Shown: positions 3,464 through 22,413 of the stretch, in pieces | Layout of the letters: the number at the start of each line of letters is the position of its first letter | Position numbering within the stretch: position 1 is the first letter of the stretch | Virus record (IMG/VR): IMGVR_UViG_3300006733_000034 | Span: 1-30,456 of that record | DNA: 30,456 nucleotides | DNA from: a virus | Reading direction: 5' to 3' (one strand) | Program-made: the position numbers and the translations under genes | Notes under the pieces: generated by a model | What the model saw: only the letters and a program-made list of their open reading frames with translations | What the model was told of the DNA's origin: nothing | Databases searched by the model: none

Positions 3464-4900
3464 TTATTTTACTCGGGTATAAGACCCATCTTCATTTCTT
3501 CTGAAAGAGCCTCCTCCTCTTTCTATTTCAATACTTTCTTCGCCTATAATCTCTATCCCTTTGGTTACATCTGGGGCTACTGTCAAAGGATCTAATCCAA
3601 ACGACTGGGCAGTTGTGGAAAATTCCTTTCTTAAAGTATTTTGGAAGTTTCTTTGTGACTTATATAATTTTCCTGCTCTATCTACGAAATCATCACGTTG
3701 ATTTTGAGACAATCTTGTTCCTTCAATAATGTTATTATATTGAGCCCGTATTCTATCTGGTACACTTCCTGAATTTTGTGCAGTAGCAAATTCTCCTTCA
3801 CGAACTGTTGAACCAGGGTCAAGTACTTTCATGTAGTTAAAGATAAGTGCCAGGTCTCCTGCTGCTGATGGGTCCGCAGCTGAGGCCTTTATTCTGCCAT
3901 AAGCATCTCTTACCTTTATGAACTCCTTAGACTGGCTATTAAAATCTTTCCTCAGACTCATAGTATTACCTATAATCTGCTGTCTGGTTAGAGGATCGAG
4001 ATTAGGGTCTGCTTCAAAGATAACTTTAGGAGGTTGTCCTGGGATTAGTTCTAATAGCTGGTTTCCCACTGTTCTCAATGTTGGTTCGGGTGTAGTAGGA
4101 AATGCCCTCTTAAATATTTCTGTCTGGATTGCAGCAGGTAATTCAGCGGGTCGTCCTAATTGAGCCATAGCTTGTCTAATCTCCGCTTCTGCTCCAAGTG
4201 CGGTTATTCCAGCTTGAGCTCGTTGTGCTTGAGCTGCTCTTCTCTGACCGAGAGCAGAGCGTTGAAATAACAATTCAGTGAGTTCTGTTTGAACTGGAGC
4301 TCTCCGAGCTCTAGCTTCTAACTCAGCACCTCTTAATGTTTCAGCCCTACCTACTAATGCTTCTGGTCTAGTTCTTGCAATTTGTCGTTGCATTTCTCCA
4401 ATCTGAGTATCTAATTGAGTGATGGCTTCGGAAGGAGCTTGGGCTTGAATTAATTGTTGTCTGAAGGGGATTAGTTGTTCTAAAATCTGACGAGTTTGTG
4501 CTTCTTCCTCTATCATTTCTGGAGTTCTCTGTTGACCCATCAACTCTCTAAACTGTGTTATTTGTTCTTCGCTAATTCCACCAAGACCAGCATCAGGAGA
4601 TACTTGAGTTACGCCTCCTGGGACTAGGGGAGTAGTAGGAGCACCAACTTGACCTCCCGCAGTAGGAGTTGTTCCTACTCCTGTTGGAGGAAGCGGTTGA
4701 GTTTCTGCAATAGAAGCAGGTGCTGGTGTTCGTTCAGTTACATCTACTGTTTCACTTATATCTACCTGTTCGCCTCCAGCAGGAAGTTGAGCGAGTTTTG
4801 CTTTTAGTGCTTCTGCTTGTACTTGTGAAGTCCGTGCTCTACGGCGTTGTCCACCAAAGAGGAGGGGGAGTGATTTTAATTGTTCTAAAAATGATGGCAT
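3464..4900 (-). CDS. Putative internal virion/ejection-type protein, Gln/Ala-rich coiled coil
   Basis: The chosen start is the ATG at 4900-4898 (MPSFLEQLKS), giving 478 residues. The frame is open 20 codons further up, but that part (MSRCSRNNFS…) lies inside the preceding gene and is not protein-like. Residues about 45-130 are Pro/Thr/Gly-rich and probably disordered. Residues about 135-270 are Gln/Arg/Ala-rich helical coiled coil (LRGAELEARARRAP…). A folded C-terminal part contains FNYMKVLDPGSTVREGEFAT, a pattern (DP-x-S-x-VREGE-x-A) known from structural proteins of short-tailed phages. With the next gene it forms a pair of long helical proteins at the end of the tail operon. Exact function unknown. 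Confidence 0.5.
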   Translation of the reverse strand: MPSFLEQLKSLPLLFGGQRRRARTSQVQAEALKAKLAQLPAGGEQVDISETVDVTERTPAPASIAETQPLPPTGVGTTPTAGGQVGAPTTPLVPGGVTQVSPDAGLGGISEEQITQFRELMGQQRTPEMIEEEAQTRQILEQLIPFRQQLIQAQAPSEAITQLDTQIGEMQRQIARTRPEALVGRAETLRGAELEARARRAPVQTELTELLFQRSALGQRRAAQAQRAQAGITALGAEAEIRQAMAQLGRPAELPAAIQTEIFKRAFPTTPEPTLRTVGNQLLELIPGQPPKVIFEADPNLDPLTRQQIIGNTMSLRKDFNSQSKEFIKVRDAYGRIKASAADPSAAGDLALIFNYMKVLDPGSTVREGEFATAQNSGSVPDRIRAQYNNIIEGTRLSQNQRDDFVDRAGKLYKSQRNFQNTLRKEFSTTAQSFGLDPLTVAPDVTKGIEIIGEESIEIERGGGSFRRNEDGSYTRVK

Positions 4901-4905
4901 AGTTT

Positions 4906-5397
4906 TTATTGAAATAAGTCTACCCTTCTGAGAGAAGTTGTTACGACTACATCTTGACAATCTGAGCCACTCACTTGTTGTAATCGGAGGGCTAATCTAT
5001 CGTCCTTATTTAATATTCTAACATTTGTATTTACTAAAGTCCCATTAACTACTGTTTCTGCAGTATCTGTCAAGTCAAAAGCTGTGGTTAATAAGTCATC
5101 TCCACTCCCAGTTGCTTCTGTTCCTTGAAGTCTTTGTACTTGCATAGTGTAAGGATCAGCCGTCGCTTCTGCTGCGGTATGAACTTCGCTTATAGCTGTA
5201 ACTTCACATACATAAGGAGCTATAAAAAACTTGTCATAAAACTCTTGTTTTCTAGCATCCGCTCCATCTACAACAGCGGTAACTATTAAGTTAGGGGCTC
5301 TGTCAAGGTTTTGATAATCAACACGAGGAGAGTCCATCCCATTGTGATAATGTGATTCAACTAATCTTGGTTGTTGTGGTTCTATGTTTTGTGGCAT
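4906..5397 (-). CDS. Phage structural protein with HxHNGxDSP motif
   Basis: This 163-residue protein has near its start SHYHNGMDSPRVDYQNL (residues 15-31), a His/Gly/Asp pattern (H-x-H-x-G-x-D-S-P) recurrent in phage fibre and decoration-type structural proteins. A beta-rich remainder contains DRLALRLQQVSGSDCQDVVVTTSLRRV at the C-terminus, similar in style to trimerising decoration domains. No enzymatic motif is present. It sits between the propeller-like tail protein and the helical ejection-type proteins with one- to five-base gaps, so co-expression with the tail is expected. Specific function unknown. Confidence 0.5.
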   Translation of the reverse strand: MPQNIEPQQPRLVESHYHNGMDSPRVDYQNLDRAPNLIVTAVVDGADARKQEFYDKFFIAPYVCEVTAISEVHTAAEATADPYTMQVQRLQGTEATGSGDDLLTTAFDLTDTAETVVNGTLVNTNVRILNKDDRLALRLQQVSGSDCQDVVVTTSLRRVDLFQ

Positions 5398-7600: not shown

Positions 7601-9022
7601 TTAGAGATAGTCTAAGCTAACTGACATCGCTGAAGCTCCTGCTGTAGCACCATTTGGTGCGGATACAACAGCCACAACGATTCCAGCACTAAAGGTTGGT
7701 GGAATCGACCAAGCTAAGTTTGCACCACCATTAGCGGGTACAAAGATTTCCTTATCAGGTACGGTTGTACCCAATGTAACTGCTCCCACAGTAGCTGCAT
7801 TAAACATAGTCAACCATTGGTCAACACCTGCTCGGTTTCCTAGTTGGTAGCCGTATAGGTTTGCTTTAGAACCCTTAACAGCTATTTTCGTTGCTACACC
7901 TGCAGAAGTTTGAAAGATAGATAACTTAGTAGCTGCATCTGGTTGAAGGATAGCTGAGGTCATCAAATTGGAAGCATCACCCTGAATAGCTGAGGAGCGT
8001 AGCAAGGCTGCATCATCTGACTTGGCTGACACATTTAGGTTAGAAGCATCGGCTTGAACAGCAGATATTCTATGATTGCTAGCGTCTGCCATAATTGCCG
8101 ATACTCTCAAAGTACCTCCATCGAGAGACTTAGCTGAAACATCTAAATTAACTGCGTCTGTTTGAACTACTGTAACATCTCCAATTGCTGACACGTGGAA
8201 TGTTCCAGCATCATCAGAGAAAGCTGACACTCTAAGATTATCAGCGTCTGGTTGGTCTACATCAATAGTTCCTGAAACGGTAAGAGTTCCGATGGCTGAC
8301 ATCCTTAATAGACCTGCATCATCTGATTTAGCCGATACGTCTAGATTACTTGCGTCATCTTGTACAGCCGAAGCACGTAATAATGCTCCGTCCTTTGACT
8401 TAGCAGAGACGTTTAAGTTTGAGGCGTCATCTTGAATAGCGGATACTCTGTGATTAGCTCCATCACCTCCGATAGAAGATACCCTGAGCAGTCCAGCGTC
8501 ATCACTTTTTGCTGAAACAGATGCCTCATTAGCGTCTTCAGTTCCTATTCGTACTGCTAATTGCTCACTAGCTGATGTAGCTAAACCGCTAAAATCAACG
8601 GTTTTTGAGCTTAACACCATTGCTGATACAGTCTGGACACGTCCATCTACTAGAACACTGTCCCCAGTTGTTCCTCCAACGGCAGACATACGAAGCAAGC
8701 CCGCATCATCGCTCTTGGCAGACACCATTAAGTTACCTGCATCTCCTTGAATAGCGGACATACGGTGAGTTGAAGCATCTCCTTGAAGTGCTGAAACCCT
8801 TAACAAGCCTCCGTCATCGCTTTTTGCGGACATCATTAGATTTCCAGCGTCAGTTTGAAAAGCTGATACTCGGTTATTACTAGCGTCACCATCAAGGGTA
8901 AGTGTTCCACCAGAAGTAATAGAGGACACCTTAAAAACAGGAGTACCATCACTTGAGATAGCAGTAGTAGCATTCACCACCGCTTGACTGGTTTCCATTC
9001 TTCCTTTGTCGTTAATAGGCAT
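7601..9022 (-). CDS. Repetitive structural/fibre protein with about 21 Ser-Ala repeats
   Basis: This 473-residue protein has three parts. Residues 1-45 are a short head. Residues about 46-357 are a repeat array with units such as SAKSDDAGLLR-VSA-IQGDASN; the SA core with V/M/I/A/S/T before it occurs about 21 times, and the SAKS-x-D-(A/G)-(A/G)-x-LR form occurs seven times. Residues about 358-473 form a non-repeated C-terminal domain (NLYGYQLGNR…DQWLTMFNA…IFVPANGG…MSVSLDYL), a type frequent at the ends of phage structural proteins. Even spacing suggests a beta-helix or beta-prism shaft. It is the third gene downstream of the adaptor and is probably a tail fibre or surface appendage. The regularly placed serines could be O-glycosylation sites; that is inference. 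Confidence 0.6.
   Translation of the reverse strand: MPINDKGRMETSQAVVNATTAISSDGTPVFKVSSITSGGTLTLDGDASNNRVSAFQTDAGNLMMSAKSDDGGLLRVSALQGDASTHRMSAIQGDAGNLMVSAKSDDAGLLRMSAVGGTTGDSVLVDGRVQTVSAMVLSSKTVDFSGLATSASEQLAVRIGTEDANEASVSAKSDDAGLLRVSSIGGDGANHRVSAIQDDASNLNVSAKSKDGALLRASAVQDDASNLDVSAKSDDAGLLRMSAIGTLTVSGTIDVDQPDADNLRVSAFSDDAGTFHVSAIGDVTVVQTDAVNLDVSAKSLDGGTLRVSAIMADASNHRISAVQADASNLNVSAKSDDAALLRSSAIQGDASNLMTSAILQPDAATKLSIFQTSAGVATKIAVKGSKANLYGYQLGNRAGVDQWLTMFNAATVGAVTLGTTVPDKEIFVPANGGANLAWSIPPTFSAGIVVAVVSAPNGATAGASAMSVSLDYL
7952..8887 (-). repeat. In-gene repeat array (Ser-Ala motif, roughly 10-15 codon units)
   Basis: Within the structural gene at 7601-9022, imperfect repeats recur through residues about 46-357. 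At the DNA level, phrases such as 'gcatcatctga' and 'gcatc(a/t)cc(t/a)tgaa' keep returning on the plus strand with synonymous differences. This indicates an old array under protein-level selection rather than a fresh tandem duplication. Confidence 0.75.
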
Positions 9023-9853: not shown

Positions 9854-10560
9854 TAATTTATTCTATTAAACATATTTATAACTGGGTCAGTTGAACGACC
9901 TCTGACTCTAGTAACATCTCTGGTGGTGAGAATTTGTCTAACTCCCGTAGTCTGATTATTCAAATCTCTAATCATTTGTTGCTTCATTCTTTCGTACTCA
10001 TTTCTAATCTGCATAGCTTCAGCACTTCTCCCTCTCCGTCTTAATCCTAAGGATTCTCCATAAAGAACTAGAGCTTCATAGTATTTCTCTGGGATTTCAG
10101 GAATAGCAGATGCCACTGAAACCGAAGGTATTTCTTTCTGATAATCAAAGTTTAAGGTAACTCCTCCTCCTGGCACTGGGAAAACTTCTAATTGAGCGTT
10201 TACTCCTTGACCTCTAAGAGTGTATATCATTGGTATGCCAGTTTCAGTAGCTGAAGGTTGTAAAATATCAAAGTCTTGTGGTGATAGGTATTGCAAGGTT
10301 ACATCTCCACCTGGATAGGTAACTGTGTTCATCTTTTCAAAATCACTAGCGATAGCAGACATTGTATAAAATCTAGTTCCCGCTGTTAGAGCTTTATTAG
10401 CAGAAGCATAGAGAAAAGGAGCGAACCCAAAAGTATTGGTGATATCTCTCATTGCAAGGTTAATCCAACCCGTGTAAGTACTTGTGTTATCACTCTCTGC
10501 TTCATTGAGTCGCAGAGCAATCTCAGTCCTTATTGATCCTGTTGATGATATTAATGCCAT
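9853..10560 (-). CDS. Head-tail adaptor / gp4-like tail adaptor protein
   Basis: This 235-residue protein begins with a helical domain (SIRTEIALRLNE…YTGWINLAMRDITNTFGFAPF), continues with beta strands (YPGGDVTLQYLSPQDFDI…AQLEVFPVPGGGVTLNFDYQKE) and ends with IPEIPEKYYEALVLYGESLGLRRRGRSAEAMQIRNEYERM. The last pattern (IPE-K-YxEAL-x-YG…RRRG…A-x-x-x-x-x-YE) is typical of phage adaptor proteins that sit beneath the portal and connect to the tail. It is the first gene after the terminator closing the sugar island and heads the tail operon. There is no Shine-Dalgarno sequence, and its own promoter is not evident. Confidence 0.6.
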   Translation of the reverse strand: MALISSTGSIRTEIALRLNEAESDNTSTYTGWINLAMRDITNTFGFAPFLYASANKALTAGTRFYTMSAIASDFEKMNTVTYPGGDVTLQYLSPQDFDILQPSATETGIPMIYTLRGQGVNAQLEVFPVPGGGVTLNFDYQKEIPSVSVASAIPEIPEKYYEALVLYGESLGLRRRGRSAEAMQIRNEYERMKQQMIRDLNNQTTGVRQILTTRDVTRVRGRSTDPVINMFNRIN

Positions 10561-10623: not shown

Positions 10624-11823
10624 CTAAGCTAATTGTTTATATTTACCTTTCTTAACCTTCTTGAAAACCTTTTTCTTTCCGAAGAAATCGTGGTACTTCT
10701 TATGAATTTCTTTGTACACTGCATCCCATTTCTTACAGTTGTTCCTTATGTCGAAATCTTTACTGATTCTTTCAAAAGCGTTCTCCCCTATATTATACCT
10801 TAGCTTCTCATCTTTTACCAAGCTGTCAATAGCTTCGTACCATTCATTCCTCTCCTTTACTAGTATACCATCTTTGCCATTGTTGATACATCTGTAAGGC
10901 TCAACATCCGAGGCGACAGTCGCCCATTTACAAGCTGAGTATTCCATCCAGCGTAAATTAGACTTTCCTCGATTAAACATATTATCTGCTAATGGAGCTA
11001 AGCTGATATCCAATCCGAGAGCTCTTAACTCTTTAGGCCACGTCTCCAGCTCTAACCAGGGAATCCACTCTATTCTGTCTTTCAGCTCTTTTGGCCAATC
11101 CTCGAAATGAGATCTATAAACATGTGTTATGAAAAGAATCACATTAGAATGTTCTTCTAAGATTCTCTTTAATGGAGGTTTAATAATCTTTATTCCTTCT
11201 GTGTGAGCAGACGAGCCAATGAATCCTACTCTAATCTTGCCGTCATCAAATTTCTTAATAGGGTATTTCTCCCATTCCTTAACATCAATGTTATTGGGAA
11301 GATGATAGATTTTAGGATTGTCCTCTTTATAAACTTCTACCAAGTTTTCGGTGCTTACAGTGATGGCATCAAAAACTTTACCAACAGCGTGCTTGTTCCA
11401 CATCAGAGCCTCTGACCCTGGATGATAACCTGTATAGCCAGGGTTGCTCGGTCTCACATGCTGAACATTATCGTCTGTATCCATTACTATCGGCATGTTA
11501 AAAAACTCTCGTATCCCTCCCCATTGGGCGTAATAGTCACCTTTATCATGTCTCCCTACAACAATCAAATCTGCCCACATAGCAACCTCAAATAAGGTGT
11601 GCATATCCATTAAAGCGTGATCTCCTTTGCCAAATCTAAAATCACTTATCGTTGCATTTTGTATATCCAAGTCTCTTAATACTTTGGCTGGTAGATATTG
11701 ACGATAGAATCCTACGCCAGAATTTTCTGCTACGTGATAATAAACATTTAACTGACCCTCTGTCTTCTTGGGCATCCTACCCAAAACATCTACTCCTTTT
11801 TTCTTCGGTTTCTTTTTAGACAT
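10624..11823 (-). CDS. GT-B glycosyltransferase (GT4-like)
   Basis: This 399-residue protein has a GT-B layout. The N-terminal acceptor half contains NSGVGFYRQYLPAKVL and PIVMDTDDN. After PKIYHLPNNIDV, a linker leads to a donor half with KIRVGFIGSSAHTEG, then ISLAPLADNMFNRGKSNLRWMEYSACKWATVASDVEPY and NGKDGILVKERNEW. The last segments match the GT4/Glycos_transf_1 pattern of nucleotide-sugar binding. Both ends are Lys-rich (MSKKKPKKKG; FKKVKKGKYK), which may help it bind acidic surfaces. It overlaps the epimerase gene by eight bases and is the final gene of the island. It probably transfers an island-made sugar; acceptor unknown. Confidence 0.75.
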   Translation of the reverse strand: MSKKKPKKKGVDVLGRMPKKTEGQLNVYYHVAENSGVGFYRQYLPAKVLRDLDIQNATISDFRFGKGDHALMDMHTLFEVAMWADLIVVGRHDKGDYYAQWGGIREFFNMPIVMDTDDNVQHVRPSNPGYTGYHPGSEALMWNKHAVGKVFDAITVSTENLVEVYKEDNPKIYHLPNNIDVKEWEKYPIKKFDDGKIRVGFIGSSAHTEGIKIIKPPLKRILEEHSNVILFITHVYRSHFEDWPKELKDRIEWIPWLELETWPKELRALGLDISLAPLADNMFNRGKSNLRWMEYSACKWATVASDVEPYRCINNGKDGILVKERNEWYEAIDSLVKDEKLRYNIGENAFERISKDFDIRNNCKKWDAVYKEIHKKYHDFFGKKKVFKKVKKGKYKQLA

Positions 11824-12799
11824 ATTTGTATAAGGTATCTCTTATTTTTTTATTAGCTCCAAATTTAGGAGGAGTGATTGGTCTTCCTTTAAAATCTTTA
11901 ACTGCATCATAGACCTTTCTCATATCTGCACCAACTAAAACTCCTCCCCGTTTATTAATTATTTCTGTCCATTCTGTTGTATCTCTTAGAATGATGACTG
12001 GCTTTTGCATCCAATAACCTTCCCTTTGGATTCCTCCCGAATCAGTAATTACTTTGGTGCAATTAGAGATTAGGGAAAGGATGCTCTTATATTCTTGCGG
12101 AGGAATAACCTCAATGTTTTTAGGAATTTTTATCTTAAACTTCCTGAGCATCTTCTTGGTTCTAGGGTGAATAGGAAAGATAATGCGTTCATTAGATAAA
12201 TCTAACGCCTTCATAATGTCTCTTAATCGGCTCTTATTGTCGGTATTAAAATCTCTATGAAGCGTAAGAAGCATGTATTTTTTATAGTCCTTAGTCCTTT
12301 TAACAGGCATAAACTTATTCAGTGCATCAAAGGAAGAATCGCCTACCACATGGATTCCTTTTTTAATCCCTTCCTTCATGAGATTGATTGCTGCATCTTG
12401 ATTGGGACATAATTTAACCTTTGCAATTCGATCAATCAAAACTCTATTAACTTCTTCTGGCATTTCCCAGTCATAACTTCTGACACCAGCTTCTAGGTGA
12501 GCCACTGGTATTTTTGCGTAAGCGGCGGCTAATGCACCTGCTAAAGAGCTGTTAGTATCTCCGAAAACCACCACTATATCTGGTTTATTTTCAAGGAATA
12601 GCTTGGTTAGTTTGTCTATCATTTGCCCTACCTTTTTACAACCTAAATTATATTTTGGTTTAGGAAGTTTTCTCTGGTCAAAGAAAGACTGCGACATTTC
12701 ATAATCGTAATGTTGGCCAGTATGAACAATAGTTTGTTTTAGCTTAGGGTCTATTTTAATGAAGTTGGGTCTAGCTCCAACCACTGTGTATATCTTCAT
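11816..12799 (-). CDS. UDP-GlcNAc 2-epimerase family enzyme, WbpI-like
   Basis: This 327-residue protein belongs to the non-hydrolysing UDP-N-acetylglucosamine 2-epimerase family. It has VGARPNFIK (7-15), HTGQHYD (26-32), FGDTNSSLAGALAA (D81), HLEAGVRS (E103), MPEEVNR (E115/E116), LLTLHRD (H181), HPRT (H211) and DSGGIQREG (253-261). The segment LRDTTEWTEI (271-280) has Trp where WecB/MnaA enzymes usually have Arg-Pro, as I recall for WbpI/WlbD enzymes, which epimerise UDP-2,3-diacetamido-glucuronate to the manno form. The protein is shorter than the usual 350-380 residues. About ten residues are missing between FIK and VHTGQ, where the first helix usually lies, so activity should be tested. 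It overlaps neighbours by four and eight bases. Confidence 0.75.
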   Translation of the reverse strand: MKIYTVVGARPNFIKIDPKLKQTIVHTGQHYDYEMSQSFFDQRKLPKPKYNLGCKKVGQMIDKLTKLFLENKPDIVVVFGDTNSSLAGALAAAYAKIPVAHLEAGVRSYDWEMPEEVNRVLIDRIAKVKLCPNQDAAINLMKEGIKKGIHVVGDSSFDALNKFMPVKRTKDYKKYMLLTLHRDFNTDNKSRLRDIMKALDLSNERIIFPIHPRTKKMLRKFKIKIPKNIEVIPPQEYKSILSLISNCTKVITDSGGIQREGYWMQKPVIILRDTTEWTEIINKRGGVLVGADMRKVYDAVKDFKGRPITPPKFGANKKIRDTLYKYV

Positions 12800-13569
12800 A
12801 AGTCATCTACTGAAGTTATATTTTTGTCTACAGTGTTTTTAAACATTTCAGCTCTAGCTTCTATCCCATACTTGCCACGCAATATATCTTTGCAGATAAC
12901 TTTCATATCTTGCCTTCGCCAACCCGCAGCCTCTCCATGAACATTGATAGAATCGGGTGAATCGGTGTACTCGTATAAATTCTTATAGAGAGGTTGAAAC
13001 TTCACATCGTTAAGAGCGAACTCCAATAACATCTGGTAATCATCACAACACCTTATTCTTTCGTCATAAGGATGTCTCATGATTATATGTCTTTTATAGG
13101 CTATCTGACCTGGAATATACTGCTCACTCAAGAGATGGTCTTTCGAGTAGGGACGAACTGGTCTTATTCCTCTTACAATGGAGTCGTGATAAACATCGTA
13201 AAACTTTAGGTACATTCCATGATAGACAGCTTCTGCATAGGGATGTTGCTCAAAGCACTTGACAATCTCCTCTAATCGGTCTGGAAAGGCAACGTCATCA
13301 CTGTCATGAACCACTATTATGTCGCCTTTAGCTAGTTTATTCCCTATATTCCTCACCTTTGACACATAACCAGAATGTTCTGCTTTGTGGTAGACAATTT
13401 TGGGATAAGCAAAGTTTTTGACAATTCGCTCTGTATGGTCGTCTGAGCCGTCATCAACGATGATTAGCTCCCAATCCTTATAAGTCTGGTCAATCACGCT
13501 TCTAATCGCATTCTGGATCACTCTAGCCCTATTGTAAGTGGGCATGACTACGCTTACTTTAGGTCGCAT
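12796..13569 (-). CDS. Family 2 glycosyltransferase (GT-A)
   Basis: This 257-residue protein has a classical GT2 start: VSVVMPTYNRARVIQNAIRS (5-24), then WELIIVDDGSDDHTERIV (33-50) and GDIIVVHDSDD (82-92) with the metal-binding DSD at 89-91. Later CDDYQMLLEFAL supplies the acidic region usual for the catalytic base. Such enzymes use a nucleotide sugar and a divalent metal and invert the anomeric centre. The length fits a single-domain cytosolic enzyme without membrane segments. It overlaps the large three-domain gene by 16 bases and the epimerase by four, so all three are likely made together. Confidence 0.8.
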   Translation of the reverse strand: MRPKVSVVMPTYNRARVIQNAIRSVIDQTYKDWELIIVDDGSDDHTERIVKNFAYPKIVYHKAEHSGYVSKVRNIGNKLAKGDIIVVHDSDDVAFPDRLEEIVKCFEQHPYAEAVYHGMYLKFYDVYHDSIVRGIRPVRPYSKDHLLSEQYIPGQIAYKRHIIMRHPYDERIRCCDDYQMLLEFALNDVKFQPLYKNLYEYTDSPDSINVHGEAAGWRRQDMKVICKDILRGKYGIEARAEMFKNTVDKNITSVDDL

Positions 13570-15704
13570 AATAGAATTGTCTTATCTTTTAGCTTAACTT
13601 TCTTTAAGACCTTGAAGTTCTTTTCATAAGGATGGTCATGACAATAGTATCTTGATGGGAATCCCATTGGTTCTATGAGAAGTAGCTTTTTGCCCATCGC
13701 CTTTAACGCTTTAACTGCCTTAGGCCATTCTTTAGCTGTTATATGTTCAAAACAAGTATAGGAAAAGATAAGCTCATGCTTTTTCTCTGGCTTGTAATCT
13801 TCTACCTTAATAGCTTCTAGGTTGTCTTTTTCGTGAGGGAATCTTAATTGAGCTGCTTCTATTAGATTCTTTGAGATATCAATACCCTTATACTTCTCAA
13901 CTCCCCATTCTTTGAGATGAGTATACCAACGAGCATCACCACACCCAACATCAACCACATCTTTAGCATTTACTTCTTTAAATACTTTATGCACCTCATC
14001 AACTTCAATCCTCATTTCTCTAGCTTGGTCTGACCATGACCTAGCTCGACTTTCCCAATAAGATTTAGGGTCATAAGTGGATAACTTTTTCATTGTTTTT
14101 CGGTATGTGCTGTGATTTAATACTTTTCTCCAATGAGCCGATCCTTTTTTGTTCTGACCTTCCTCACACATTTCTTTTAATTTTTTAATACCATCTACTG
14201 CGTGTTTTACTGTAAAGTTTTTAAGACTCAACGTTCCATAGATAGGCACACTTTGGATTGAATGTCTGCCTGCTAGGATAAACTCTAAGACACTGATGGG
14301 TAATCCATCGTGTTGAGGAAATCTCATGATAGCTGAGCATTCCTTAATGAAACCCTCCATGTCATGAACATAGCCCATGTACTCACAGTTCTTACCTAAT
14401 GCTGGGTCTTTTCCTGTTTGTCTAGGATTACCGAAGAACTTGAACTTAACATCAGGAAGTTTCTTAACTATTTCCTGCATTTCTTTTGGTCGGTAGAACT
14501 CCCTATTAACAGCTGGCATATAACAAGCAACGGTAAAGTCTTTAGGAAGTGGTTGCATTTTATAGAGCTTGGCTGGCGGTAAAGGTACTATCTTAGCGTC
14601 AATACCCAACTCCTTTAACTCGTCTTGAATAAAGTCGCTCTCACACAAAACTTCATCAACGGCATTCTTAAAGTAATTACGCCAAACCTTTAGATTGTTA
14701 AGGGAAACATTAAATAGTTGCCATACATCTGTACCTACAAAATGAACAATCTTTTTAGCTGGTGTTCTCCCTTCTTCTTGTCTATAAAGATTATTGAAGA
14801 ACATCTGGTCTTGCTTTACTCCAAACTGCGGATAGAAACCAATGGAATAAAGAGCGTCATATTCATGCGGTTTAAACGAAGGCATTTCTTTATAATCTGC
14901 TCCCAGAATATAAGCTAATCTTTTGGCATGAAACCCTGCTCCTAGTGAAGCTACGCATAGCTTTCTCTTTGGAATACCATGCTTCTTTTTAATAGCATTA
15001 GTTCTAGCAAGCCAGTTCTCGGCTGAATCATAAGATAATCCTCCCTTATGAGGAATGGTTGTGCCAAAGAATATATCTTGAACAAAAACTCCCTTTCCTC
15101 CGTTCTTCACTACTGATAACCAATAATCCCAGTCTTGTAAGGATTTAATCTTCGAGTCCCAGAGTCCGTCTGGTTGATTCATTTTCTCAGCATATTCCCA
15201 GAACTTCTCTCGCCTAATAGGAAATGAGCCATCAATGTAGTTAGTTACTTCTAGTAGATAAGGGTCAAAAGCTCCTCCCATATAATCTTGACCTTCCAAT
15301 GGCTCGCCATCCTCATCAATGAAACGATACCCTCCGTACATAAAGTCATATTCTGGGAAGTCCTCTAAAGTGTCATGCCATATCCGTGCCATTCCTGCAT
15401 AAAGGATTGCATCGGCTGGAAGGAACGCTAGATACTTTCCTGTCGCTACCTTTGCTCCTTTATTTCTTGCTATGCAAGCACCTTTGTTTTTCTCGAAGTT
15501 AATAAATTTATCTATTAATCCTACAGCTTTTAAGTTCTCTAATACCTCCTTGCTCTTATCGGTTGAGCCATCATTAATAGCGATAATTTCTATGTTAGGT
15601 AAATCTTGATCTCTAACAGATAACACCATCTTCTCAATAGTGTCGGCATCGTTATAACAAGGGACGATAAAACTAATTGTTGCTTCTTTATTTTTTGTGG
15701 TCAT
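13554..15704 (-). CDS. Three-domain fusion: GT2 + GT-B glycosyltransferase + SAM methyltransferase
   Basis: This 716-residue protein combines three enzymes. Residues about 8-240 are a GT-A domain (ISFIVPCYNDADTIEKMVLS, IAINDGSTDKSKEVL, KNKGACIARNKGAK). Residues about 250-530 look like a GT-B glycosyltransferase (KIVHFVGTDVWQLF, VKFKFFGNPRQTGKD, MRFPQHDGLPISVLEFILAG). Residues about 548-716 are a class I SAM-dependent methyltransferase with motif I VVDVGCGDARWY (near 583-594), GIDISKNLIEAA and FSYTCFEHI. It could add two sugars and cap or decorate the chain by methylation; methyl capping is a known way to end O-antigen chains. It overlaps neighbours by 16 and 17 bases. No frameshift or joint is visible, so the fusion looks genuine. 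Confidence 0.8.
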   Translation of the reverse strand: MTTKNKEATISFIVPCYNDADTIEKMVLSVRDQDLPNIEIIAINDGSTDKSKEVLENLKAVGLIDKFINFEKNKGACIARNKGAKVATGKYLAFLPADAILYAGMARIWHDTLEDFPEYDFMYGGYRFIDEDGEPLEGQDYMGGAFDPYLLEVTNYIDGSFPIRREKFWEYAEKMNQPDGLWDSKIKSLQDWDYWLSVVKNGGKGVFVQDIFFGTTIPHKGGLSYDSAENWLARTNAIKKKHGIPKRKLCVASLGAGFHAKRLAYILGADYKEMPSFKPHEYDALYSIGFYPQFGVKQDQMFFNNLYRQEEGRTPAKKIVHFVGTDVWQLFNVSLNNLKVWRNYFKNAVDEVLCESDFIQDELKELGIDAKIVPLPPAKLYKMQPLPKDFTVACYMPAVNREFYRPKEMQEIVKKLPDVKFKFFGNPRQTGKDPALGKNCEYMGYVHDMEGFIKECSAIMRFPQHDGLPISVLEFILAGRHSIQSVPIYGTLSLKNFTVKHAVDGIKKLKEMCEEGQNKKGSAHWRKVLNHSTYRKTMKKLSTYDPKSYWESRARSWSDQAREMRIEVDEVHKVFKEVNAKDVVDVGCGDARWYTHLKEWGVEKYKGIDISKNLIEAAQLRFPHEKDNLEAIKVEDYKPEKKHELIFSYTCFEHITAKEWPKAVKALKAMGKKLLLIEPMGFPSRYYCHDHPYEKNFKVLKKVKLKDKTILLCDLK

Positions 15705-16176
15705 AAAAATCTTTTAAGTTCTTTTTAATTCGTGCGGGATTCCCAGCGACAAAGCATTCGTCTGGAACATCTTTAGTAACTACTGCTCCATCAGCAATAA
15801 TGGCTCTCCGACCAATTTTAATTCCTCCCACTATTGTTGCGTTTGCACCAATCGAAACTTCATCTTCAATGATTATATCCAATATCTTTTTAGCTTTGCG
15901 ATAAGCAAATGGCTTCCTTACATTGGTGAAGTTAGCACCATTACCGATAAATACCTTGTTCTTGATAATAGTCCCAGGGTATATGTTTACGTTGTTGCCT
16001 ATCTTAACATCATCACCAATAATAGACCCTTCGCCGATGTAACATTTTTCTCCGACATTAGTATCTCGTCCTATCTTTGCACTATTACAAATGTGGGTGA
16101 AATACCACACCTTGCTTCCTTGTCCTACCGATACATCTTCCTCAATTATTGAGCTTACTGAATAAAAGAAATCCAT
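15688..16176 (-). CDS. Left-handed beta-helix N-acetyltransferase, WbpD/WlbB-like
   Basis: This 162-residue protein is a run of hexapeptide repeats (VGEKCYIGEGSIIGDDVKIG…, VSIGANATIVGGIKIG) forming a left-handed parallel beta-helix, the fold of trimeric acyl-CoA transferases. The opening EEDVSVGQGSKVWYFTHI, the central NGANFTNVRKPFAYRK and the closing GNPARIKK resemble WbpD/WlbB enzymes, which acetylate the 3-amino group of UDP-2-acetamido-3-amino-glucuronate. It starts one base inside the stop of the WbpB-like dehydrogenase, and the two families act in the same pathway. The alternative is another amino-sugar acetyltransferase of the same fold. It is slightly shorter than typical WbpD. Confidence 0.75.
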   Translation of the reverse strand: MDFFYSVSSIIEEDVSVGQGSKVWYFTHICNSAKIGRDTNVGEKCYIGEGSIIGDDVKIGNNVNIYPGTIIKNKVFIGNGANFTNVRKPFAYRKAKKILDIIIEDEVSIGANATIVGGIKIGRRAIIADGAVVTKDVPDECFVAGNPARIKKNLKDFYDHKK

Positions 16177-17006
16177 TAATTCATTTGTATTAATTGTTTA
16201 ATTGTTCGACCAATTTCACTGAGAGGTACTTTTTTACCCTCCAAAGCATCCTGATAAACTTTCGTATGCAAGTTTTCAAAATGTCTTGTTAAATCTATGT
16301 CTCTTTCTCCGATTACAAACTTTCTAAACTGATTATCCATTGGAGCTTTTAGAGACAGCTCCCATTTGATATTGACATTGGGAAACCAAATCTTTCCTTT
16401 GGCATAGTCTGTTTCTAAAGTTTCTATCTTCCACTCCACTGGCTTACCAAAGAACCAGAATAATAAATCAAAATAATGAACGCCTATGTTGAATAATATC
16501 CCTCCCGATTTTTTGTCATCACCTTTCCAGCCTTTCCAGTAGAAATCACCACGATGCATTCTCAGCGTCAACTCTCCATCCAACACAGGACGATCTTTGT
16601 CAATCCATTCTTTTATCTCTTGCAATTCAGGGTTATGTCTGAGTTGGAGAACTGGAAATAGGTTACCGTTAGCTACATCTTCAAGTTTATTAAAATGCTC
16701 TACCGATGTAACTAGAGGTTTTTCACAAATAACTTTTTTACCTTTCTCGATACACACCATAACATGTACATAGTGAAGATGGTTAGGGGTACAAACACTA
16801 ACCCACTCAACTTCCTTAAATTCTTCAGACTCTATTAAATCTTTAAAGTGGTCAAAGAAGGCTGTTTCCTTAGGTAGCTTTTGGTGTTTTTCCACATCAA
16901 TATCACAACCAGCGATGATCTTTCCTCCGATATCTTTAATAGCATCTATATGTCGTTGGCTTATAAAGCCAAGTCCTACAATCGCCCATTTAGTTTCTTT
17001 TTTCAT
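16176..17006 (-). CDS. Gfo/Idh/MocA oxidoreductase, WlbA/WbpB-like
   Basis: This 276-residue protein has an N-terminal Rossmann fold (WAIVGLGFISQRHIDAIKD, residues 7-25), VSVCTPNHLHYVH (69-81), the signature ICEKPLV (93-99; K96 is the usual active-site lysine) and LQLRHN near 120. It then has WKGDDKKSGGILFNIGVHYFD (160-180, H177), then HFENLHTKVYQDALEGK. The latter parts follow WlbA/WbpB, which oxidise C3 of UDP-GlcNAcA to a 3-keto sugar. At 276 residues it is shorter than the usual 310-350 because the C-terminal region is compact. It overlaps the cytidylyltransferase by 17 bases and abuts the matching acetyltransferase. The WlbA assignment is good but rests on motif comparison from memory. 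Confidence 0.75.
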   Translation of the reverse strand: MKKETKWAIVGLGFISQRHIDAIKDIGGKIIAGCDIDVEKHQKLPKETAFFDHFKDLIESEEFKEVEWVSVCTPNHLHYVHVMVCIEKGKKVICEKPLVTSVEHFNKLEDVANGNLFPVLQLRHNPELQEIKEWIDKDRPVLDGELTLRMHRGDFYWKGWKGDDKKSGGILFNIGVHYFDLLFWFFGKPVEWKIETLETDYAKGKIWFPNVNIKWELSLKAPMDNQFRKFVIGERDIDLTRHFENLHTKVYQDALEGKKVPLSEIGRTIKQLIQMN

Positions 17007-17397
17007 GTCTAATTCTGTGGATTAATTCTGATGTCGAGTAATTATGTTTTCTAGTATTGAAATAGGTTTTAATCTTTAAGGTATGCCCTGTGAACTTCCT
17101 TTCCTTCCAGTCAGCTCCGATGATTCTTATATCTGGCTTTAGTTTCCTTAATAGTTTTATTAAATCATCTTCAGTCTCGTATATATGTATTTCATCTATA
17201 TATTTTAAAGCTGATAGCTGTATCCATCTTTCTTCTAATGACTGGATTGGGTTCTTTTTGTTTCTTGGTCTATCTATTGCTGGATTAGTCTGCAGTCCAA
17301 CGATGAGATAGTCGCATTGGCTTCTAGCTTCTTTAAACATTTTTATATGCCCTGCGTGGCATAAATCAAAAGCTCCGCATGTAAATCCTTTAATCAT
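16990..17397 (-). CDS. TagD-like nucleotidyltransferase
   Basis: This 135-residue protein begins GFTCGAFDLCHAGHIKMFKEA, with the HxGH nucleotide-binding motif at 14-17 (HAGH), followed by CDYLIVGLQTNP and ADWKERKFTG. This matches the glycerol-3-phosphate cytidylyltransferase/RfaE C-terminal family, which activates a phosphorylated sugar or alcohol with CTP or ATP. The usual final RxxxISTT loop is represented by HNYSTSELIHRI, a weaker version. It overlaps the aminotransferase gene by eight bases. Its substrate is not evident, and no kinase or CDP-dependent partner is present, so it may make a CDP-activated linker such as CDP-glycerol or serve an unrelated step. Confidence 0.75.
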   Translation of the reverse strand: MIKGFTCGAFDLCHAGHIKMFKEARSQCDYLIVGLQTNPAIDRPRNKKNPIQSLEERWIQLSALKYIDEIHIYETEDDLIKLLRKLKPDIRIIGADWKERKFTGHTLKIKTYFNTRKHNYSTSELIHRIRHEKRN

Positions 17398-18415
17398 ATT
17401 CTTTTACAGCATCGATTACATATTGAACTTCTTTGGGTGTCATATCGGGATAAAGAGGTAATGAAACTATGTGTTCTCCCGTCCATTCTGTGTTGGGCAA
17501 AGTTCCTTTTAACGCATATTTTTTATAAGCTGTCATTTCGTGCAGTGGTCTAAAATGTACTGTCGTCTGTATTCCTTTCTCGTGCATATGATCCATAAAG
17601 TTCTCTCTATTATTAACAAGAATAGGATAAACGTGGTTTCCAGTATTACTTTCCAAAAGTCCCTCATTATATTTATTAACAATCTCATTACGCCGTTTAG
17701 TCATTTCTGGGAGCTTTTTTAATTGCTCGATTCCAATAGAAGCTCTAAGATCATCACCTTTGTACCGATAACCAACGAACTTGATGTCATATTGTTTGTA
17801 TCTTCCTTTATATCTTTCGGCTGTCCCAAAATCTAAGCCATGATCTCTGGCTGACCTGAACCATTCCGCTTCCTTATCATAGTTAGTAACAATCATACCC
17901 CCTTGACAAGTGGTCATATTCTTAGTGGCATAAAAGGAATAACACCAAATAGAAGGGGAATTAACTACATCATCAGCTTCGATGCGGTGAGCTGAGTCAT
18001 AAATTGGTGCATTTGTTTTATTTCTTTCTCCACAAAGATGTACATGAATCCCATTTAGATAAGGTTGGTTAATTAAAAGAGAGTGAGTTTCAGTATCTAC
18101 AAAGTCTGGCTTAAATCCATTATTAACTATTACTTCTGCGGTAGCAGCAAAAGTTAAGCTCGGAACTTGTAGACTTGGCTGATGTTTACAAAACAAAAAC
18201 TCCTCTCTATGGATTTTTATATACTTAACGGCTAGGTCTAAAGCTGCCGTTCCACTATCAACAAAAATAGCGTGCTTGCCTCCAACATAATCAGCAAACC
18301 TTTCTTCAAATTCTTTGGACTTAGGACCAAGTACAACCCAGCCACTGTCGATAGTTTCGCAAATAGCTTTCTTTTCTTCTTCTCCTAGTGTTGTTTTACA
18401 GAATGGGATTTTCAT
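17390..18415 (-). CDS. DegT/DnrJ/EryC1/StrS aminotransferase (WbpE- or FdtB-like)
   Basis: This 341-residue protein is a PLP-dependent sugar aminotransferase. It has SGWVVLGPKSKEFEE (24-38), HAIFVDSGTAALDLAV (48-63), VPSLTFAATAEVIV (84-97), PIYDSAHRIEA (137-147, D140 at the pyridine-contact position) and CYSFYATKNMTTCQGGMIVT (158-177, K165 the expected PLP lysine). It transfers an amino group from glutamate to a keto-sugar nucleotide. Neighbours suggest either the 3-keto product of the WlbA/WbpB-like dehydrogenase (as WbpE) or a keto-6-deoxy sugar from the RmlB-like enzyme. It is a little shorter than the family norm of 360-400. It is preceded by a 52-base gap with a GGGAGG/CCTCCC hairpin, and its ATG lacks an accessible Shine-Dalgarno sequence. 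Confidence 0.85.
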   Translation of the reverse strand: MKIPFCKTTLGEEEKKAICETIDSGWVVLGPKSKEFEERFADYVGGKHAIFVDSGTAALDLAVKYIKIHREEFLFCKHQPSLQVPSLTFAATAEVIVNNGFKPDFVDTETHSLLINQPYLNGIHVHLCGERNKTNAPIYDSAHRIEADDVVNSPSIWCYSFYATKNMTTCQGGMIVTNYDKEAEWFRSARDHGLDFGTAERYKGRYKQYDIKFVGYRYKGDDLRASIGIEQLKKLPEMTKRRNEIVNKYNEGLLESNTGNHVYPILVNNRENFMDHMHEKGIQTTVHFRPLHEMTAYKKYALKGTLPNTEWTGEHIVSLPLYPDMTPKEVQYVIDAVKEYD

Positions 18416-18420
18416 AAAAT

Positions 18421-18440
18421 GGGAGGTTTGACCCCCTCCC
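18421..18440 (-). promoter_or_regulatory. GGGAGG/CCTCCC hairpin before the aminotransferase start
   Basis: On the minus strand GGGAGG, an 8-base loop and CCTCCC form a 6-bp all-GC-rich stem five bases before the aminotransferase ATG, followed by only ATTTT. This is the largest gap inside the otherwise overlapping island. It could be a weak terminator/attenuator or an RNA structure covering the only purine-rich ribosome-binding-like sequence in the gap. The structure is seen; the role is not. Confidence 0.5.
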
Positions 18441-18467
18441 GTAGGTTATAAAGGAAAGTCGCTAGTA

Positions 18468-18905
18468 TCACTGACTCTCTTTGATCTTGATGCCAAAGTA
18501 GAACTTAGCAGGATTACCCCACCACGCTTCAAGCGAAGGAATGTTTCTGGTAACAACCGAGCCTGCACCTATCTGAGAGCTTTCACCAATCTCAATACCA
18601 GGAAGGATAGTGGCGTTAGCTCCGATAGATACTCCGTCATTGACCTTAGTTTTCATCCAATGCTTCCCTCCAGATGGAGGATGTTTGTCATTGGTGAATA
18701 CCACATGAGGTCCAATAAAGACATTGTTTCCAATTGTTACTCCGTTAGGAATAAAGCATCCCGCTTGAATCTTGCAGTTGTTGCCAATTATTACATCATC
18801 GCCTATCCAGACATGGCTATGAATTGTACAATTATCCCCAATGACACAATCACCAATGTTACTGAGTTCTTGATGCCAAACTTCAGTCCCTTTACCAATT
18901 TTCAT
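18468..18905 (-). CDS. Left-handed beta-helix sugar acetyltransferase (FdtC/QdtC/WbbJ type)
   Basis: This 145-residue protein is built from hexapeptide repeats (IGDCVIGDNCTIHSHVWIGDDVIIGNNC, GVTIGNNVFIGPHVVFTND, GVSIGANATILPGIEIGESSQIGAGSVV) and ends with WWGNPAKFYFG. This is the trimeric left-handed beta-helix acyltransferase fold. Size and the FTNDKHP segment resemble the dTDP-amino-sugar acetyltransferases FdtC/QdtC. Standing directly after RmlB- and RmlD-like genes, it may acetylate a dTDP-amino-6-deoxy sugar or an O-position. It has the best ribosome binding site of the island: AAAGGAGT five bases before the ATG, in a three-base gap after the preceding stop. Acceptor specificity cannot be read from sequence. 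Confidence 0.75.
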   Translation of the reverse strand: MKIGKGTEVWHQELSNIGDCVIGDNCTIHSHVWIGDDVIIGNNCKIQAGCFIPNGVTIGNNVFIGPHVVFTNDKHPPSGGKHWMKTKVNDGVSIGANATILPGIEIGESSQIGAGSVVTRNIPSLEAWWGNPAKFYFGIKIKESQ

Positions 18906-18908
18906 TAG

Positions 18909-19742
18909 TTACTCCTTTATTCTTTTGTTAAATTCCTCGACCACATCATTCACTCTATCTCTTACATTCGGTAATAGAGTGTTTCTTACCGAAGTCGCAT
19001 ATGTCGTTACTCGTTGAGCCTTACCCTCTTTTTTCATATCTTCGTCTTGCACTTCTTTAGAACGGATTGTAAAGGTATGTCCCATTTTCTCTCCTAGTTC
19101 TGCTGGTGAGATAGTACCTTCATTGACTAAATGGAAGACTCCATGCCCTCCATCAGTCATTAGTTTTAATAAAACAGGGAACATATCTTCAACAATCGTA
19201 ACTGTTTCTTGGTTATCATTGAGCTTCTCATAGCCGAGGAGCTTGTTCAGAGTATTGCGTGGATGTGGAATAGCGGAGATAGGTAATCGAGGTCGGATAA
19301 TAATTGATCGAGGATTAGCTTCTAATATCAAATGTTCTGCTACAACTTTGGATAAAGCATAGAAGCATTTAGGATTAGGGATACTTTCTTCAGTCTTGAC
19401 ATCCTCTTTATCTTTACTCTCAAAGATACAAGCTGAGGAAATAAAGACGTGCAGTTTACCATGATCCTCACACAATCCAGCTATATTAGCCGCAGCTAAG
19501 GTATTGATGCCTAAAGTTTCGTTTTTGTTCTTCTCACACCAGTCAATTTGTGTTTTAGCCACAGCGTTGATAACTACATCACACTCATTAAAATTAGTCA
19601 GGTCCTTGATAGGTTGCATTCCGACAGCTCTGATGTCAGTTCTCTCGATCATAGACGAGAATCCTTTTTGTTCATTAAAGTAATCGTTTAACCGATTCCC
19701 TAACCAACCATCGCCATAAATTAAAATCTTAGTATTTTCCAT
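18909..19742 (-). CDS. RmlD-like extended short-chain dehydrogenase/reductase
   Basis: This 277-residue protein has a nucleotide-binding start ILIYGDGWLGNRL (6-18, G10-x-G12-x-x-G15), CDVVINAVAKTQIDWCE (54-70) and a catalytic YALSK (Y128, K132) in NPKCFYALSKVVAEH. The segment VFISSACIFES replaces the usual hiSTDYVFDG. This pattern is that of RmlD-type dTDP-4-dehydro-sugar reductases and related 4-keto reductases. It overlaps the RmlB gene by 14 bases, so the two probably act in sequence on a dTDP-4-keto-6-deoxy sugar. RmlA and RmlC are not present. The altered SSACIF segment makes the exact reaction uncertain; a general SDR epimerase/reductase is the alternative. Confidence 0.7.
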   Translation of the reverse strand: MENTKILIYGDGWLGNRLNDYFNEQKGFSSMIERTDIRAVGMQPIKDLTNFNECDVVINAVAKTQIDWCEKNKNETLGINTLAAANIAGLCEDHGKLHVFISSACIFESKDKEDVKTEESIPNPKCFYALSKVVAEHLILEANPRSIIIRPRLPISAIPHPRNTLNKLLGYEKLNDNQETVTIVEDMFPVLLKLMTDGGHGVFHLVNEGTISPAELGEKMGHTFTIRSKEVQDEDMKKEGKAQRVTTYATSVRNTLLPNVRDRVNDVVEEFNKRIKE

Positions 19743-20697
19743 TTTTATATTTATCTATGTACCACTTAATTGTTTTTACCATCTCACGCTCGAATGTTCC
19801 TTGTTTATGACAGCATTTAGGCTTCCAGCCTAGATTCTCTAAATTCTCGGTAGACAAAGCGTACCGAGCATCATTGCCTGGTCGGTTCTTTATCATCTTT
19901 ATTTCCCCTCCAAAATGTTTAATCCCAAATTCAGCTAACTGACGGTTAGATAATTCGTTATGAGCGGATACGTTATAAAAATCTCCTGCTTTTCCTTTAT
20001 GTAAAACAAGGTCAATGGCTGAACAGTTGTCTATTACCCACAGCCAATCTCGTACCTCTGTCCCTTCACCATGAACAGTTATAGCTCTATTCTTGGCGAT
20101 GCATTCGGCAATAACGTGGACGTACTTCTCTTGGGACTGGTATTTTCCGAAGTTGTTAGCAGACCTTGTATAAAGAATATCAAGGTTATGAGGAGGAAAC
20201 AGGTAAGAATAAGTAAATACTTCTGCCGCTGCCTTGCTTCCTGAATAACGATTTTTGGGTAGAAGTCTGTCTGTTTCGCTGAAGACTCCTTTTTTAATTT
20301 CTCCATATACTTCATCAGTACTAATATGAACCATTCGCATATTGTAGTTCATCGCTACCTCAGCAATGACTCCTGCTCCAATAATGTTGGAGTGAATATG
20401 TCTATTTGATTTTACTATTGCTCTACCTACGTGAGATTCAGCCGCAAAGTTAACTACCGCATTGCACATATACAAAGCGTCAAACATTGCTTCCTCATCA
20501 CAGATGTCTGCGGTAAAGAATTTAAAGCGTGGGTTGTGTTTAAATTTGTCGAGGTTCTCCCAACTGAAACCTCGTTCACTGGCGGCGTAGGTCAACTTGT
20601 CTATAAGGACAAAGTCGTAAGAGGGATATTTGTCAGCCATGTAATGGATGAAGTTACTCCCAATAAATCCTGCCGCTCCTGTTACGGCTATTTTCAT
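19729..20697 (-). CDS. rmlB: dTDP-glucose 4,6-dehydratase (RmlB)
   Basis: This 322-residue protein matches RmlB through its whole length: GAAGFIGSNF (7-16), VNFAAESHVGRAI (82-94), STDEVYG (126-132), RYSGSKAAAE with Y151 and K155, TRSANNFGKYQSQEKYV, HGEGTEVRDWLWVIDN, YNVSAHNELSN and RPGNDARYAL…LGWKP. The enzyme converts dTDP-glucose to dTDP-4-keto-6-deoxyglucose using bound NAD. The consensus PYSASKA is RYSGSKA here, still with the catalytic Tyr and Lys. It is the first gene of the sugar island, downstream of an extended -10 promoter and a terminator. Substrate dTDP-glucose would need the host's RmlA. The ATG has no strong Shine-Dalgarno sequence (ACGAG at five bases). Confidence 0.9.
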   Translation of the reverse strand: MKIAVTGAAGFIGSNFIHYMADKYPSYDFVLIDKLTYAASERGFSWENLDKFKHNPRFKFFTADICDEEAMFDALYMCNAVVNFAAESHVGRAIVKSNRHIHSNIIGAGVIAEVAMNYNMRMVHISTDEVYGEIKKGVFSETDRLLPKNRYSGSKAAAEVFTYSYLFPPHNLDILYTRSANNFGKYQSQEKYVHVIAECIAKNRAITVHGEGTEVRDWLWVIDNCSAIDLVLHKGKAGDFYNVSAHNELSNRQLAEFGIKHFGGEIKMIKNRPGNDARYALSTENLENLGWKPKCCHKQGTFEREMVKTIKWYIDKYKNGKY

Positions 20698-21336: not shown

Positions 21337-22413
21337 CTAAGTAGAAGTTGGAATTGCGGACAAAGTAAGACCTGCATTTTCTCGAGCAGAAGTAGATGAA
21401 GTACCAGTCATAACATCATCAGAGCCAGTCCAAAGAATCAAACCTGAGGAGACGTTCAACACCTTAGAGGTGAAGTGTGCCTTCCAACCGTAAGTGGTTG
21501 ATTGGTTCAATGGGTCAGACTTAGATGGACCTTGTACTAAGAAGGTTTTAACACCTCCATCCAGTTCGGTTGCACCATAGAATGAGCGACCAAAGATCAC
21601 AGTTCCGTATGCTAGGGCTGATACACCACCAGCAACAGAGATAGCAAATCCATTACCAGAACCAGCAGAAACTGGGGTTTGAGTAGTTTCGACGAATCGA
21701 ACACCCTCAACTCTTCCAATTTCACCCCTGTATAAGAACTCAGGAGTTGTGTACTGATGCCAGTTCTGCCATGTGCTGTCAGAACGTAAGTCTTCAGAAA
21801 TCAACGGGTGAATAATACCGATGTAGTTCTGTCCATCCACTGTAGGAGCGTTTCTTCGGCGGAGTTCGCCAGCAGAACGTCTAATATCGGAAACAGCGAT
21901 CAACACATTACTGTAAGTATTTGCAACAAAGTTATCTGTTGAAATAAGTAATTCAGAAGATGTCTTGACAATGTTGATGGATGACACTGCAGTATCAGGG
22001 TCATCGAAGAATAGGATTGCTTGCATGATTGACTTATCAATCGTTTCGGCAGCTTGGTGAGCCAATTCTTGAGTAGCCATGTCTAGAACATCAGTGATTG
22101 ATGCTAGTTCAACAGTGTCTTCAAGAACGGTGTAACCTCCATAAACTTCAATGAGCGATGATACTTTCAGTGTGGAAAGAACGTTAGCAGATGGTCTAAT
22201 ACCAGCAGTAACCTTCTGACCGTAACCCAATCGTCGTGGTCTGTTCCAAATAACGCTAGTACCTTCGTTTAACGGAAGGGGCTTTTTAACAGCGAATTGA
22301 AAGAACTTAGTCTCTGGATTTAAAGTTTCGAGAAGCATGCGGTCATAGTAACTTTTAATGGTATTCGTCAACGACGTAGTCGTTGTAAATGTACCAATAT
22401 CAATTGCAGGCAT
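21337..22413 (-). CDS. Major capsid protein, N4-gp56 family
   Basis: This 358-residue coat protein starts MPAIDIGTFTTTTSLTNTIK and continues YYDRMLLETLNPETKFFQFA, VKKPLPLNEGTSVIWNRPRR, VYGGYTVLEDTVELASITDVLDMATQELAHQAAETID. This succession (SYYDRxLLE…F…KKP-P-x-x-x-G…RxxR…GGYxxL-x-D…) is the hallmark of the N4-gp56/P22-like HK97-fold coat family. Later segments (YIGIIHPLISEDLR…WQNWHQYTTPEFLYRGEIGRVEGVRFVE) also fit that family. It follows the scaffold-like gene as expected. The stop is TAG, and a hairpin-rich untranslated stretch follows. The start codon has only a weak purine match upstream, surprising for the most abundant virion protein. Confidence 0.88.
   Translation of the reverse strand: MPAIDIGTFTTTTSLTNTIKSYYDRMLLETLNPETKFFQFAVKKPLPLNEGTSVIWNRPRRLGYGQKVTAGIRPSANVLSTLKVSSLIEVYGGYTVLEDTVELASITDVLDMATQELAHQAAETIDKSIMQAILFFDDPDTAVSSINIVKTSSELLISTDNFVANTYSNVLIAVSDIRRSAGELRRRNAPTVDGQNYIGIIHPLISEDLRSDSTWQNWHQYTTPEFLYRGEIGRVEGVRFVETTQTPVSAGSGNGFAISVAGGVSALAYGTVIFGRSFYGATELDGGVKTFLVQGPSKSDPLNQSTTYGWKAHFTSKVLNVSSGLILWTGSDDVMTGTSSTSARENAGLTLSAIPTST

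Follow-up and report, generated by a model that had tools for sequence, protein, structure and literature searches.

A serine-locked beta-repeat stalk protein beside a viral sugar island as a candidate O-glycan acceptor

The 30456-base record of an uncultivated virus analysed here (the window, a partial contig) encodes a 473-aa repeat protein in which nearly every 12-residue unit carries a serine at the same place, next to an island of genes for making and transferring sugars. The best single explanation for this array is that it serves as a multivalent acceptor for O-linked glycans, a reading to which we give somewhat less than an even chance. It draws on the constancy of the serine across homologous arrays and on the restriction of these arrays to viruses with the island, and it has to be weighed against a structural role for the serine and against other acceptors.

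The repeat protein and its array

The repeat protein is encoded on the minus strand, as are the head and packaging genes of the window (SU10-like portal and adaptor, major capsid protein, and terminase) and the tail-side genes. This structural-gene neighbourhood and the relatives of the protein point to its presence in the virion. The coding region is organized as follows:

7601-9022, minus strand: putative SA-repeat virion fibre or stalk protein, 473 aa, from its SA spacing and a DUF7486 match above the Pfam cut-off
7952-8887, minus strand: array, residues 46-357, of 12-residue units D[AG]xxLxVSAxxx, from repeat counts; low-confidence models give each unit a strand and a short turn
7604-7942, minus strand: C-terminal domain, about residues 361-473, common to proteins of many unrelated island-less phages

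An earlier note on this DNA had described about 21 regularly spaced SA motifs, and the count bears this out, with 22 in residues 46-357, most pairs of them spaced exactly 12 residues apart. The whole protein holds 26 SA dipeptides, far above the number in shuffled sequences (mean 9.3, sd 2.6, and maximum 21 in 5000 shuffles), and identity at a lag of 12 residues amounts to 94 matches, vs 25.6 in shuffles (maximum 43). The seven copies of SAKSxD[AG][AG]xLR in the same account were all located as exact matches, at residues 65, 101, 170, 206, 230, 296, and 332; an example of a repeat peptide is VSAKSDDAGLLR. The label “serine-rich”, by comparison, is inapt. Serine makes up 13% of the protein, and its combined Ser and Thr content of 20% is not above that of neighbouring proteins (22% in the major capsid protein, 22% in a 112-aa protein, and 29% in a 216-aa protein), leaving regular placement as the feature that sets the array apart.

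Structure models of the array reached a pLDDT of 46 without an alignment and 56 with one, and at this level of confidence each 12-mer is modelled as one strand followed by a short turn, with VSA in the strand and the serine at its centre. No solved structure matched the repeat protein by sequence, nor by fold at E<=0.001 with the low-confidence model as query. The window protein scores 36.5 bits against DUF7486 (PF24307; curated cut-off 27) over residues 172-236, and its relatives score 16-25 bits, just under the cut-off, or give no match. The C-terminal domain (VTLGTTVP) has a wider distribution, with 25 distant loci in other viruses at E<=1e-3, among which are small single-domain proteins as well as stalk proteins with ordinary repeats (L185, L187, L188, L192, L194, and L195); no matches to island proteins were found at the loci of these relatives. 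On the strength of this C-terminal homology, the window protein belongs, as judged from sequence, to a broad class of modular virion stalk proteins. Its N-terminal part resembles a beta-repeat stalk in models of low confidence, and the fold support from BFVD is weak, the low-confidence model retrieving general viral matches only.

The sugar island and its distribution

The island lies upstream of the repeat protein gene and encodes the following proteins:

10624-11823, minus strand: GT4-type glycosyltransferase, the island gene closest to the fibre (Pfam Glycos_transf_1, phrog_7162)
11816-12799, minus strand: UDP-GlcNAc 2-epimerase family protein (WecB); best PDB matches are UDP-2,3-diacetamido-2,3-dideoxy-glucuronic acid 2-epimerases
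12796-13569, minus strand: GT2 glycosyltransferase, by family match
13554-15704, minus strand: large fused enzyme, GT2 N-terminal and methyltransferase domain C-terminal, by family match
15688-16176, minus strand: hexapeptide sugar acetyltransferase (best PDB match 3mqg, an LPS biosynthesis acetyltransferase)
16176-17006, minus strand: Gfo/Idh sugar dehydrogenase, WbpB-like (best PDB matches 3o9z and 3oa2)
16990-17397, minus strand: cytidylyl/adenylyltransferase-like protein, by family match
17390-18415, minus strand: DegT/DnrJ/EryC1 sugar aminotransferase, by family match
18468-18905, minus strand: second hexapeptide acetyltransferase, by family match
18909-19742, minus strand: RmlD-like NAD-dependent reductase, by family match
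19729-20697, minus strand: dTDP-glucose 4,6-dehydratase-like (RmlB-like) protein, by family match

The ten genes at 11816-20697 and the GT4 gene give a total of about eleven sugar genes, placed between those for capsid and tail, with phage-encoded glycosyltransferases placed among structural genes as in a phage virion glycosylation system. The distance of about 1.6 kb given earlier between the last glycosyltransferase gene and the repeat protein gene measures 1602 bases, from the ORF end at 10624 to the start at 9022. Because no obvious membrane segments are present in the island enzymes, a cytoplasmic acceptor would be their natural reading. The island includes counterparts of the WbpB dehydrogenase, WbpE aminotransferase (the DegT protein, assigned at family level only), WbpD/WlbB acetyltransferase, and WbpI epimerase, and the island ORFs include no WbpA UDP-GlcNAc 6-dehydrogenase, a function that the host could supply. 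Without WbpA, this enzyme set fits the established Wbp/Wlb biochemistry of UDP-ManNAc3NAcA-type sugars, and it suggests a sugar of that type as the island product. A separate 205-aa GT-A-like glycosyltransferase ORF is located at 28111-28728, upstream of the terminase genes and outside the island.

Besides the window, seven contigs (L002, L003, L007, L008, L009, L015, and L065) have arrays, and all of these viruses carry the island. L002 is 98% identical to the window, and L007 and L008 are near-identical to each other, giving six distinct arrays in total. No array relatives were detected in 50,697 phage records or by an alignment scan of 84,980 genomes, and a Ser-blind tandem-unit pattern returned only the known array viruses, plus chance or unrelated repeats. 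One match, in Phage C48C1, was rejected as an array relative; it is an unrelated repeat protein of 3347 aa (L004:10930-20973) consisting largely of short TRxRxS, GNYSR, and GEYTG repeats.

In all lineage contigs of sufficient length, the island itself comes after the capsid gene, array or no array. It is conserved between capsid and tail genes throughout the G000-G011 lineage, in which capsid identity falls to about 42%, and so seems to belong to the core traits of the group. HNH-type endonuclease-like ORFs occur in L003, at 4743-5195 and 18301-18714, one of them within the island and the other close to the lysis genes. In L034, a 166-aa ORF for a LAGLIDADG-like endonuclease, probably marking an intron or intein, interrupts the capsid gene at about 10001-10500. 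In a capsid tree, where the L034 row is a 306-aa partial frame, arrays fall in two separate MCP clades, beside the island in both, and at least two changes are needed to account for this. The L007 array protein appears to share its N-terminal type with the other clade, which suggests exchange of fibre genes between clades. The co-occurrence of array and island is partly common descent, since the array lineages are related.

At least three genomes keep the island and lack the array, namely G002, where the array slot holds no gene, G003, which encodes a 199-aa relative (P0020), and G004. The array therefore cannot be the sole or obligatory acceptor of the island, and across the lineage members none of the island enzymes was observed to follow array presence. 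An acceptor shared by every genome that keeps the enzymes would be found in the capsid protein and not in the SA array:

21337-22413, minus strand: major capsid protein, a rival acceptor with a Ser/Thr-containing C terminus (phrog_1357, E 3e-47)

The island may instead glycosylate another component, most simply this capsid protein or some other shared structural protein, or feed another acceptor, with the fibre as a syntenic neighbour whose serines are conserved for adsorption or another reason. We consider this improbable, though it has evidence on its side in the constant place of the island after the capsid gene, in the Ser/Thr-rich C terminus of the window capsid protein (TGTSSTSARENAGLTLSAIPTST), and in reports of mycobacteriophage glycans at the C termini of capsid and tail-tube proteins (PMC12619734). 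It accounts neither for the constancy of the serine in the arrays nor for the lack of arrays in viruses without the island. All of the data can be reconciled with an island that acts on several targets, or on targets that differ from virus to virus. The array-less, island-bearing contig L014 encodes a 332-aa protein (16324-17322) with a poly-Ser tract of about 90 residues, nearly all Ser, and its gene immediately precedes one for a propeller-type tail protein, a place comparable to the array slot.

The constant serine and its possible roles

Unit sites in the six array proteins were located by the D[AG] anchor, of which the serine is not a part. The site is serine in 80 of 91 cases, and the 11 exceptions comprise six that are apparently off register and five Asn, so that serine occupies 80 of the 85 in-register sites. 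Thr, Ala, and Gly are each absent from these 85; for zero Thr in 80, given the S:T ratio of the arrays themselves, the chance is 6e-17. The residue after the serine is nearly always small (mostly A, S, or G), while neighbouring strand positions vary freely and the other columns of the array have diverged widely. The serine codons are equally varied, with all four TCN codons used in the window and AGT and AGC as well in its relatives.

This codon record bears on the possibility that the regularity of the array reflects recent tandem duplication alone. Such repeats expand readily, yet the unit codons have diversified across AGY as well as TCN and the other columns have diverged where the serine has not, and duplication as the full explanation is refuted on this ground, leaving it with almost no weight. 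The same pattern suggests that the unit serine has been kept by selection.

What that selection acts on is the main question. The serine may be structural, its hydroxyl forming a hydrogen-bond ladder and the small Ser-Ala pair allowing close strand packing in a probably trimeric stalk, with the sugars placed elsewhere; to this we give a substantial minority share of belief. Its central place in each modelled strand and the small residue that nearly always follows are in keeping with such a role, and the best argument for it comes from the alternation of unit types. A hydrophobic residue lies two places past the serine in about every second unit, giving roughly half of the serines a hydrophobic neighbour on the same face, and both strand types keep the serine; for this reason, part of the unit serines may sit at an interface. 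Packing alone, however, would permit Ala, Gly, or Thr, and none of the in-register sites has any of them. Comparison with related stalks is also unfavourable to a structural role. With a Ser-blind strand pattern, 40 of 55 strands in the arrays have Ser vs 2 of 31 in island-less stalks with the same C-terminal domain (Fisher p 1e-9), a comparison of comparable strands and not a position-by-position alignment. The island-less stalks have T, D, A, N, or E at these strands, and P0020, an array-less relative from the same lineage, has VAA and VQA. Because these proteins carry other residues, the stalk fold probably does not demand serine.

If the array is instead an O-glycan acceptor, the fibre or decoration stalk would consist of a lineage-specific N-terminal segment, the array of 12-residue beta units, and the widespread C-terminal domain. 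Soluble island enzymes would make the sugars and attach them to the array serines in the host cytoplasm, before assembly, resulting in a fibre with regularly spaced O-linked glycans. The serines would then face outward and be glycosylated, and the glycans might act in the virion in, for example, shielding or adsorption. The absence of Thr counts for this acceptor reading, since Thr would be expected if a small beta residue sufficed. Also in its favour are the placement of arrays beside the island in both MCP clades and the poly-Ser protein of the array-less L014. A more specific version, in which the virus makes its own diacetamido-uronic-type sugar and offers a single acceptor site of the form [VIM]-S-[ASG] in every 12-residue beta unit, with glycan number set by repeat number, is tentative and on balance unlikely to hold in full.

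The earlier proposal of the array as a candidate acceptor thus survives in part. The serine lock, the diversified codons, the lack of Thr, the confinement of arrays to island viruses, the unlocked island-less stalks, and the enzymes without obvious membrane segments speak for it, and retention of the island without the array in at least three genomes, with no island enzyme tracking the array, speaks against it.

Comparison with known glycosylation systems and stalks

Phages are already known to carry glycosyltransferases that act on capsids and tail tubes (Freeman et al. 2023, cited in PMC10877033 and PMC12619734). Mycobacteriophage genomes, like the window, encode glycosyltransferases predicted to act on the phage’s own virion proteins, and the glycans are reported on capsid and tail-tube subunits, whereas the candidate here is a repeat fibre. 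Unlike the mycobacteriophage arrangement, the window island also makes its own sugars. Flagellin O-glycosylation by FlmG and Maf offers a second likeness, in that soluble cytoplasmic enzymes modify Ser/Thr of a filament protein with no lipid carrier (PMC7591256). The island enzymes likewise have no clear membrane segment, though the acceptor here is putative and no FlmG or Maf homologue is among the best family matches of the island proteins.

Serine-rich repeat glycoproteins such as Fap1 (PMC5207161) and the SRRPs of L. reuteri (PMC6291802) also combine a Ser repeat with a neighbouring cluster of glycosyltransferase genes, as in the window. The comparison fails on composition: in place of Ser-dominated low-complexity repeats, the window protein has its 13% Ser (20% Ser and Thr) in ordered 12-residue beta units. 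The enzymes differ, no accessory Sec export or GtfA/GtfB pair appears by name among the island family matches, and no secretion or cell-wall anchor would be expected.

Known phage glycoprotein acceptors are few. If the acceptor reading is true, having a short repeated motif so close to its enzymes would make a phage O-glycosylation sequon open to testing, and the array would explain why so many sugar genes are retained between those for capsid and tail. Should the serines be structural instead, the arrays would remain a Ser-locked type of beta stalk that differs from its relatives. The modular VTLGTTVP stalks place the same C-terminal domain behind a beta-repeat stalk but, unlike the window array, have no Ser lock and lie at loci without island matches. 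Each ingredient was known on its own, from phage enzymes that glycosylate virions to stalks of modular build and Ser repeats that carry glycans; what is new is a Ser-locked beta stalk confined, in the collections searched, to a lineage with a sugar-making island.
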